DNA of 50,405 nucleotides from contig JASBSN010000023.1 in NCBI GenBank assembly GCA_030148915.1, positions 1 to 50,405 of the forward strand, given 5' to 3'. The notes under the pieces were generated by a model. It had not been told where the DNA came from, did not search any database, and saw only the letters and a program-made list of their open reading frames with translations. The translations under genes were made by a program, and so were the position numbers. The stretch's first letter is position 1, and each line of letters begins with the position of its first letter. This stretch comes from Thiogranum sp. (GTDB lineage Bacteria > Pseudomonadota > Gammaproteobacteria > DSM-19610). This document shows, piece by piece, positions 27,045-29,541 of the stretch.

Positions 27045-27970
27045 GCGGCGCGCTCCGCAACCCGCAGCACCGCACTGCGCGCGCGCGGATTGGTACGCAC
27101 CTCAGCCTCATCCGCGCGCAGCGCTTTGCCCACTGCGCGGAGCGGCGGCGCATAGGCTTGTGGCAACACAGGGAGGTCAGGCGGCAACTGCGGGCCACGT
27201 TGTTGGTCGCGGATGAAGCGCTTGACGATGCGATCCTCCAACGAATGGAAGCTGATAACCGCCAGACGCGCACCGGGCGCCAACACCTCGACCGCCTGCG
27301 GCAGAACCGCCTGCAGATCCTGCAGCTCGCGGTTGATGAAAATACGCATGGCCTGGAAACTGCGCGTCGCCGGATGTCTTTTCGTCGCGCGCCCGGGCAC
27401 CGCGGCGGCGATCAGTTGGGCCAGCTGCAAAGTGCTGCGCAGCGGCGCCGTTTCGCGCTGCGCGACCAGCGCGCGGGCGATGCGTCGCGAGTGGCGCTCT
27501 TCACCGTAACGCCACAACACGTCGGCGATCTCCTCGGCGCTGGCCTCGGCCAGCCAATCGCTGGCCGAGGGACCGGCCTGCGGATTCATACGCATATCCA
27601 GCGGTCCGTCATGCTGAAAGCTGAATCCTCGCCCGGCATCATCCAGCTGCGGCGAGGAGACGCCCAAATCCAGCACAATCCCACTCACTTTCCCTTGCCA
27701 GCCCAGTTCCGTCACCACTGATTCAAGATCCCCGAAACTCGCGCATCGCATTATCAGGCGCGGCTCGCCGCCAAATTGGCTGGCCGCAAACGCCACTGCC
27801 GCAGGGTCTTTGTCGAAAGCCAGCAATCTGCCTTCGGCCCCCAATCGCGCCAGTATCGCCGCAGCATGACCGCCCCGCCCGAACGTCCCATCCACGTACA
27901 ACCCGTCTTGCTTGATCTGCAATACGTCCAGCACCTCATCGAGCAGCACCGGACGATGTATATCGCTCAT
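27041..27970 (-). CDS. rsmH: 16S rRNA (cytosine-1402-N4)-methyltransferase
   Basis: RsmH (MraW) methylates N4 of C1402 in the decoding centre of 16S rRNA. The 309-residue product shows [13 protein letters not shown] at the N-terminus, the SAM-binding [14 protein letters not shown] at about 26-39, [31 protein letters not shown] near 100-119, and [13 protein letters not shown] near 250. The start overlaps the mraZ stop by one base. Confidence 0.99.
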
Positions 27971-28419
27971 CAGAGCGTTAATGACTCAAGCGGACTGGGC
28001 TTGTCGCCAGCCGCGTCGTCCTCCATCCAGGAGCTGCCGATGTGCTCCCAGGCTTCCTCGTTCCAGATTTCAAATTTCTTGCCCACGCCGACCAGCGCGG
28101 CGTTTTTATCCAATCCGGCAAATTCGCGCAGTCGCGGCGCAATCAGGATGCGGCCGCTGCCGTCCATTTCCACCTCGGTGGCATAGCCCACCAGCATGCG
28201 CTGCACGTTGCGCGTGCGCCGGTCGTGGTTGGGAGTGCGGATCAACTGCAGCTCGAGGTCTTCCCACTCCGGCTGCGGGTAGAGCAGCAAACAACCGTCG
28301 GAATGGACGGTCAGCACCAGCTGACCGGCGTAACGCTCGGATATAAGTGCCCGATAGCGGGTCGGCAAGGCCAACCGCCCTTTCGCATCCAGCTTGACCG
28401 AGCTACCACCCCGAAACAC
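27970..28419 (-). CDS. mraZ: Transcriptional regulator MraZ
   Basis: MraZ is a ring-forming DNA-binding protein with two SpoVT/AbrB-like domains that controls the dcw operon by binding repeats in its own promoter region. The 149-residue product has [15 protein letters not shown] at 9-23 and the second repeat [20 protein letters not shown] near 83-102, each a beta-alpha-beta half with the DxxGR motif. The start is a GTG at 28419 with an AGAGGG ribosome site. Four MraZ boxes lie immediately upstream, so autorepression is expected. Confidence 0.97.
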
Positions 28420-28508: not shown

Positions 28509-28821
28509 GGCGACCGGAGGAAAATTCCTGTTGTTCTGACAATCACTTACGGTGTGCAAAGTGTCGTCAATTGCAGCCATACCAGCGGCGCATAAACTGT
28601 TTAAATTGCAAATCAGGGAGTTGGTGTAATTACCTAGACGGATGGTTAAGATTTGAGGTCGCCGCCAATCTTTTCATTAAATTTTTTTATTTAAAAATTA
28701 AAATTACTATAGGTTAAATGCACCGACCCAGTGCAGAAAAAGCGATCTGGGTGCGTGGAGGGGACGGTGAATCGAGCATGGGGCAATTCAGGAGTTGCTG
28801 AGGCAGGACATTTCCCTCGCG
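28509..28821. other. Non-coding region upstream of the dcw promoter, with an AT-rich tract
   Basis: About 310 bases without a supported gene. From 28668 to 28722 it is strikingly AT-rich (runs of A and T of seven bases and more) within a GC-rich neighbourhood. A hairpin with arms ACCCAG and CTGGGT lies near 28728-28756. A 27-codon frame from the ATG at 28719 has no convincing ribosome site. The RNase P RNA gene, found near mraZ in some relatives, is not recognisable here. Confidence 0.4.
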
Positions 28822-28902
28822 AACTCCGGCCGGGTACTCCCTCGATGGCTTAGGGTGCCGCGAACGGCGCATGCACCATCGAGGGAGTACCCGGCCGGAG
28901 TT
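28822..28902. repeat. Long-hairpin element A: conserved 27-base core inside a perfect 27-bp stem
   Basis: The arms 28822-28848 and 28876-28902 are perfect reverse complements over 27 bases. The central 27 bases (28849-28875) begin CTTAGGG and end GCGCATGCA and contain a small inner hairpin GTGCCG-CGAA-CGGCGC with one T-G pair. The same core, with three changes, occurs in element B inside an unrelated stem. Core and flanking GG/CC resemble REP-type palindromes (GGCTTAGG... and ...GCATGCACC), but the long, element-specific stems are not explained by that. Confidence 0.75.
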
Positions 28903-28983
28903 GGGCCCGACTCGGAACCGCGGTAGCCCGAACCGGAACCAGCAAAAGTTTCAGTCTTAATACAGCAGCGGCGCGGGGTGCAG

Positions 28984-29068
28984 GCGGCTCTGGACCGGTC
29001 GTCCGTTTTTGGCTTAGGGCGCCGCGGGCGGCGCATGCACCAAAAACCGACGACCGGTCCAGAACCGC
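28984..29068. repeat. Long-hairpin element B: same core in a different 29-bp stem
   Basis: Arms 28984-29012 and 29040-29068 pair over 29 positions with two mismatches. The core 29013-29039 matches element A at 24 of 27 positions, and its inner hairpin GCGCCG-CGGG-CGGCGC is fully paired. The stem sequence (TCTGGACCGGTCGTC then a run of T) shares nothing with that of element A apart from the TGG/CCA next to the core. It lies 20 bases beyond the ssb stop codon, so it may also act as an ssb 3' structure. Confidence 0.75.
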
Positions 29069-29088
29069 TTTATGCGAAATGGCGTCTC

Positions 29089-29541
29089 TTAGAATGGAAT
29101 ATCGTCGTCGAAATCGTCCGCCGCGGCGGCCGGTGCCGGTGCCGCCTGCGGGGAGGAACGCTCGCCGGCGAAATCGGCACTGCCGCCACCGCCACCGCCG
29201 CCGCCACGGCCGCCCAGCATCTGCATTTCGTTGGCGATAATCTCCGTGGTGTAACGGTCGTTGCCGGTCTTGTCCTGCCACTTGCGGGTCTGCAATTTGC
29301 CTTCAACGTAGACCTGCGAGCCCTTGCGCAGGTACTCACCGGCGATTTCGGCCAGGCGCCGGTAAAAGACGATGTTATGCCACTCGGTCTTGTCTTTCTG
29401 TTCGCCGCTTTGCTTGTCCTTCCAGGACTCGCTGGTCGCGAGAGTGACGTTGCAGACCGCACCGCCGTTGGCCATGTAGCGCACTTCCGGATCCTTGCCC
29501 AGATTGCCAATGAGAATTACTTTGTTGATGCCTCGTGCCAT
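29089..29541 (-). CDS. ssb: Single-stranded DNA-binding protein
   Basis: SSB coats single-stranded DNA in replication, repair and recombination. The 150-residue product has an N-terminal OB fold starting [20 protein letters not shown] with [28 protein letters not shown] typical of the family, a flexible Gly-rich linker (nine glycines in [11 protein letters not shown]) and the acidic C-terminal tip DDDIPF that recruits partner proteins. The ATG at 29541 has a GAGGAG site. It is transcribed away from the YajR-like gene; uvrA and ssb are near each other as in many gammaproteobacteria, but not directly divergent. Confidence 0.99.

Follow-up and report, generated by a model that had tools for sequence, protein, structure and literature searches.

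How can a DNA hairpin lose the sequence of its stem and keep its pairing? The question is raised by two long hairpins, A and B, that lie side by side in the 50,405-nucleotide stretch of Thiogranum DNA analyzed here (the window). The original prediction described A as having a perfect 27-bp stem and B as having a 29-bp stem with two mismatches, and an inverted-repeat search of the window bore this out exactly. In A (28822-28902), 27/27 bp of the left arm (28822..28848) and right arm (28876..28902) pair around a 27-nt core (28849..28875). In B (28984-29068), 27/29 bp of the two arms (28984..29012 and 29040..29068) are paired, with the 27-nt core (29013..29039) between them; all six features were called on the plus strand. 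A and B occupy the top two ranks among the inverted repeats of the whole window, in which the shuffle expectation for the 27-base core is 0. The B hairpin begins 20 nt past the stop codon of an ssb-like gene (29089..29541, minus strand), whose 3' end points toward the hairpins. On the A side lies a mraZ-like gene (27970..28419, minus strand) that heads a cell-wall/division cluster. Elsewhere in the window, positions 563-607 form a perfect 21-bp inverted repeat with a 3-nt loop (GCCAATAAAACAAAACCCGCC), which is terminator-like and unrelated to the core.

A search of the draft genome (3.22 Mb in 135 contigs) with a core pattern allowing up to 3 mismatches found the core at 63 places, compared with 0 for the reversed control. 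Some matches at contig ends represent one element split between contigs, which brings the count of distinct copies closer to 60; copies having shorter inner hairpins are picked up with a looser pattern. When copies were printed with their flanks, 24 to 30 of the 30 positions next to the core were paired in nearly all complete copies, and 11 of the 14 long hairpins in 450 kb bear the core. The expectation that the core is constant, and that pairing rather than stem sequence is kept, thus holds across the repeat family, nearly every intact copy having its own element-specific inverted arms. The claim that stems share only TGG/CCA is correct for A versus B but not as a genome-wide picture, in which A stems resemble A stems and B stems resemble B stems. 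The stems form two subfamilies, each with a recognizable consensus: CGAGGTTCAGCCGGGTAG.CCCTCGATGG among A copies and GCGGGTTTC.ACCGGT....GGTTTTTGG among B copies. Small asymmetric changes beside the core, including GTTAGGG, six T for five, and a shortened stem, are present in several B and A copies (L041, L046, and L034). Several draft contigs of this genome (G000) end within hairpins (for example, L024/L039, L034/L042, L010/L036, L005, and L006). The family probably breaks the draft assembly, and contig pairs could probably be joined through the hairpins. An assembly artifact was considered as the source of the family and rejected: each copy is unique, and most are internal to their contigs even if several contigs end in hairpins.

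The hairpins of the window are not two separate elements. Eighteen close pairs in the genome each combine an A with a B hairpin, their cores lying 130 to 197 bp apart, and sequence is conserved across the middle segment and for about 45 nt outside each stem, so that the unit measures roughly 330 bp. The window contains one such two-hairpin unit: its middle segment (28903..28983, no strand assigned) joins the hairpins, its outer A end (28770..28821, with an approximate outer limit) has GGGCAATTCAGG, comparable to GGTTAATTCGG in the family, and its outer B end (CTTTA..., 29069..29088, no strand assigned) is shorter than in full copies. The family consensus of the stems, together with conservation extending some 45 nt beyond them, speaks against the earlier proposal that the core inserts into the loops of preexisting palindromes. 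In keeping with this, the core-free orthologous sites of relatives showed no uninterrupted palindrome, and this held for the window locus in congeners as well as for seven further sites.

The orientation of the core differs among units: 11 are -A+B, 4 are +A+B (the window included), 2 are -A-B, and one (L007) is +A-B, apparently a case of half units lying side by side. Flank motifs hold one orientation while that of the core varies, indicating that the core itself has been inverted. Such inversion inside the stem was found in seven units, namely, the 4 +A+B units, the 2 -A-B units, and a single B copy (L052), whose flank score is -22 against +27. In the window, the B core has the canonical orientation and the A core is inverted relative to the usual orientation in units; this assignment comes from unit topology, as flank scoring by itself is ambiguous for A. 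Copies without inverted arms, at odds with the original prediction, amount to a handful: one decayed copy (L057) and A/B chimeras (L025, L133, L136, and L138, from this genome and from the congener G001). In a further copy, L131, an A arm faces an unrelated right side. The chimeras may be what is left after deletions between the cores of parallel A/B pairs.

With gene orientations taken from a purpose-made, simple hexamer gene caller, 20 of 32 element sites are between convergent genes, 10 between tandem genes, and 2 between divergent genes. In a 400-kb background, convergent orientation accounts for 54/386 adjacent pairs and 12/123 gaps of at least 100 bp. At element sites, the stop codons of the orthologous gene pairs in relatives often abut or overlap, with no hairpin present; at seven sites other than the window, the gap is 124 to 459 bp in this genome, and at several of these sites it is -5 to 45 bp for most relatives. 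At the L023 locus, the empty sites of two congeners read ATGAG-CTAA-CCCGG (G014) and ATGAG-TTAG-CCCGG (G004), with stop codons that overlap by 4 bp. The filled site reads ATGTG-CTAG-[insert]-CTAA-CCCGG, with YTAR on both sides of the insert. This locus also holds other inserted repeats and gives the only clear target duplication, one good case and not proof; at the other sites, any duplication has decayed. Among stop codons facing elements, 33/61 are YTAR, versus 100/392 in the comparison set (p=1.5e-5). These sequence comparisons are consistent with a YTAR target and a 4-bp duplication. In the window, TTAG on the plus strand (CTAA on the minus strand) at 29089..29092 is both the ssb stop codon and, partly by comparison with other sites, a candidate YTAR target at the B end; no YTAR is visible at the outer A end of this unit (28770..28821).

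No convincing terminal inverted repeats (TIRs) were found in the unit, whose ends are too diverged for a clear TIR, and no autonomous transposon partner for it was found in the genome. The single DDE_Tnp_1 gene of the genome was considered as a partner; no ends common to it and the unit could be established, and no firm link between the two emerged. Nor was a function for the host found. Other repeats cluster at the gene ends that carry elements (L150:2987-3035, L009, L131, and L132). At L150:2987-3035, CGCATTTCTCACCGCCGTTC arms form a perfect hairpin; sequence of the GTCATTCCGGCGTAGGCCGGAATC type is also among the repeats copied at element loci.

Related elements with the CTTAGGG...CATGCACC frame were detected in 3 of 16 congeners: the pattern matches G001 five times, in one case (L139) without paired arms, and G004 and G014 have one related element each. 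Only single matches were found outside the genus in a class-wide scan of 369 genomes. A core-pattern scan of GTDB returned five single matches in other lineages, which were taken as chance. As far as these scans reach, the family is confined to one genus. At the window locus of the congeners, the unit is absent; in G004 and G001, ssb is followed instead by a hairpin that is GC rich and terminator-like.

We compared the arms among copies. The arms differ at about 30% of positions between copies, and 97% of pairs are still Watson-Crick. For B, non-Watson-Crick cells number 25/841, with a pairwise arm difference of 8.7/29 positions. Across 20 B copies, 98.1% of cells are paired versus 83.3% in shuffles, and there are 95 two-sided changes versus 21 in shuffles, a count reached by 0/500 shuffles and above all slid controls; no single-side G-U states were present on the scored strand in these copies. 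The ratio of transitions to transversions is 120:149 for paired changes (A, 56:56; B, 64:93), 181:234 for unpaired flanks (A, 96:133; B, 85:101), and 70:16 for the core (A, 30:13; B, 40:3), so that the transition share of the paired changes is like that of the unpaired flanks and unlike that of the core. Orthologous B hairpins of G004 and G014, within an alignment of 85% identity, differ at inner pairs 9, 12, 19, and 24 and are Watson-Crick in both genomes; two of these four changed pairs are two-sided transversions. These four compensated pairs indicate that compensation occurs in place.

We consider it probable that the family is one mobile, noncoding repeat of about 330 bp whose stems drift yet stay paired through replication template switching. 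The whole unit (A hairpin, middle segment, B hairpin, and conserved outer ends) would be inserted by a lost or distant transposase, the apparent targets being YTAR/CTAG tetranucleotides, with duplication of 4 bp, and inserts would be tolerated chiefly at the ends of convergent genes. The arms would then gather point mutations. Since each hairpin is a strong quasi-palindrome, template switching during replication could copy one arm onto the other and turn a mutation into a paired change in one event, so that the stem sequence drifts and pairing is kept. A switch that spans the loop would invert the 27-nt core. In published work, template switching between inverted repeats is recognized by arm homogenization plus spacer inversion (PMC8604942, PMC8794818); the former study describes the two together, and the latter describes loop inversion. 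Both are seen in this family, and this match to published footprints favors template switching, which we infer to be the cause of the stem pairing. A route through G-U intermediates should favor transitions, and a copying route should not; the missing transition excess fits the copying route and, though indirectly, two-sided changes that would arise in a single event. Of the inverted-copy mechanism that had been suggested for this locus, the part that concerns the arms stands as the best explanation.

Template switching alone does not explain why the core and inner stem are far more conserved than the outer stem and flanks. Core positions depart from the modal base in 5 to 8% of cases versus 19 to 42% for the outer stem and flanks, and the B inner stem TTTTTGG is invariant except for one cell. 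Probably the core or inner stem is under constraint, or else the amplification is fairly young.

Core conservation would also be expected if selection acted on a transcribed structure, with the hairpins serving as bidirectional 3'-end or mRNA-stability elements and the stems being kept by compensatory mutations. We regard this as unlikely, although several observations agree with it. Convergent sites are far commoner than among background pairs (20/32 versus 54/386), the B hairpin follows the ssb stop codon by 20 nt, in a position occupied in some congeners by a GC-rich, terminator-like hairpin, and B mismatches on the oriented strand are of the A-C type in 11 cases and the G-T type in 2. This 11:2 ratio leans toward G-U in the downstream RNA, that of the gene adjoining the B end, and may reflect RNA-level selection or strand-biased mutation; no such bias is seen among A mismatches. 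Against a transcribed structure, paired changes show no excess of transitions over unpaired flanks, cores are inverted in seven units, unpaired A/B chimeras persist, relatives often have abutting or overlapping stop codons at the same place with no hairpin, and a T-tract after the stems is absent. A mixture of template switching and RNA-level selection is possible.

The remaining explanations are less favored. It is improbable that a dedicated enzyme recognizes the core and opens or recopies the hairpins, rewriting one arm from the other and flipping the core, such that the family is actively reperfected and not passively corrected by stray template switches. Still more doubtful is a REP-type element whose core is read as a recognition hairpin by a RAYT tyrosine transposase. 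The core does resemble a tagged mini-hairpin ([T/G]TAG-GG-stem-loop-ATGC), GTAG is present in a minority of copies, and dimers and the convergent-gene location are as in REPs (PMC3733652). However, most copies have TTAG as the tag, a REP is far smaller than the conserved unit, the genome's own RAYT, its only full-length Y1 transposase, has GGGGTCAG repeats and not the core on its flanks, and the element-bearing congeners G004 and G014 have no Y1 transposase at all, so the RAYT/REP origin proposed earlier finds no backing. The single RAYT-like gene (L060:1107-1960, G000:C100) is bordered by TATTCGGGGTCAGAGTAAAAA-type repeats that match the GGGGWSAS motif of TIR-associated tyrosine transposases (PMC3733652). 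Recombination between inverted arms, with inversion of the loop and gene conversion between copies sharing the core, would fit the loop inversions and the conserved core; it is very unlikely, in that inversion alone moves no new mutation to the other arm and arms of 28 bp are short for homologous recombination. We give almost no credence to a stem built anew at each insertion by copying of flanking DNA, the other part of the inverted-copy suggestion, which would suit copy-specific stems but is contradicted by the retained A or B consensus and by the G004/G014 orthologs, whose hairpins change in place by compensated substitutions.

The unit has partial counterparts among known repeats. As a short, noncoding, multicopy insertion, it is like a MITE, and its architecture resembles REP dimers and the R0/R2 repeats of Pseudomonas fluorescens. 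R0, R1, and R2 have inverted repeats of 24 to 43 bp around a core, number hundreds of copies, are biased to tail-to-tail gene pairs, and were proposed to be MITEs; their inverted repeats are family constant, and R0 and R2 match IS ends (PMC2718517). The family described here instead has copy-specific stems, a constant core, two hairpins per unit, and no IS partner that we could find. Like GTAG/CGTC REP dimers and BIMEs, it is intergenic, often dimeric with heterodimers of different stems, and often between convergent genes, and it has complementary stem changes between subfamilies (PMC3733652). REPs are 20 to 40 bp with 6- to 13-bp stems, and the GTAG type is RAYT linked (PMC3733652), whereas the hairpins here are 81 to 85 bp with outer stems of 27 to 29 bp around a REP-like core, and the inner hairpin alone is of REP size. 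In place of an unpaired GTAG/CGTC tag, nearly all copies have CTTAGGG and a minority have CGTAGGG; no linked RAYT gene was found in this genome or in G004 and G014. Quasi-palindrome correction shares the arm homogenization and the spacer inversion, and its two-sided changes in one event are predicted here as well, but the published cases, in rRNA, microRNA, and yeast genes, involve stems that are short or spacers of a few bases (PMC8794818, PMC8604942), in contrast to the dozens of stems of 27 to 29 bp, each pair of arms enclosing a 27-nt spacer, in a single bacterial genome. Intrinsic terminators are likewise GC-rich hairpins past stop codons; here, the stem is far longer, the core is conserved, and the sequences after the stems hold no T run beyond CTTTA. 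Rfam 15 gave only chance hairpin matches, all below the gathering score, and no description of this build was found in the open-access literature. The family is thus apparently an undescribed intergenic palindromic repeat of the MITE/REP-dimer type.

The insertions apparently lie where convergent genes have stop codons that overlap by 4 bp, and both genes retain their stop codons. For the hairpins themselves, the family appears to be an unusually clear, natural, and replicated record of arms evolving in concert, probably by template switching. A stem with strong covariation is commonly taken to prove that an RNA is functional. The present family suggests instead that mutation alone can make covariation, even two-sided transversions, when each inverted arm serves as a template for the other. 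Such mutational covariation could be measured in the family's own genome, where about 60 hairpins run in parallel and the inverted and chimeric copies serve as controls.
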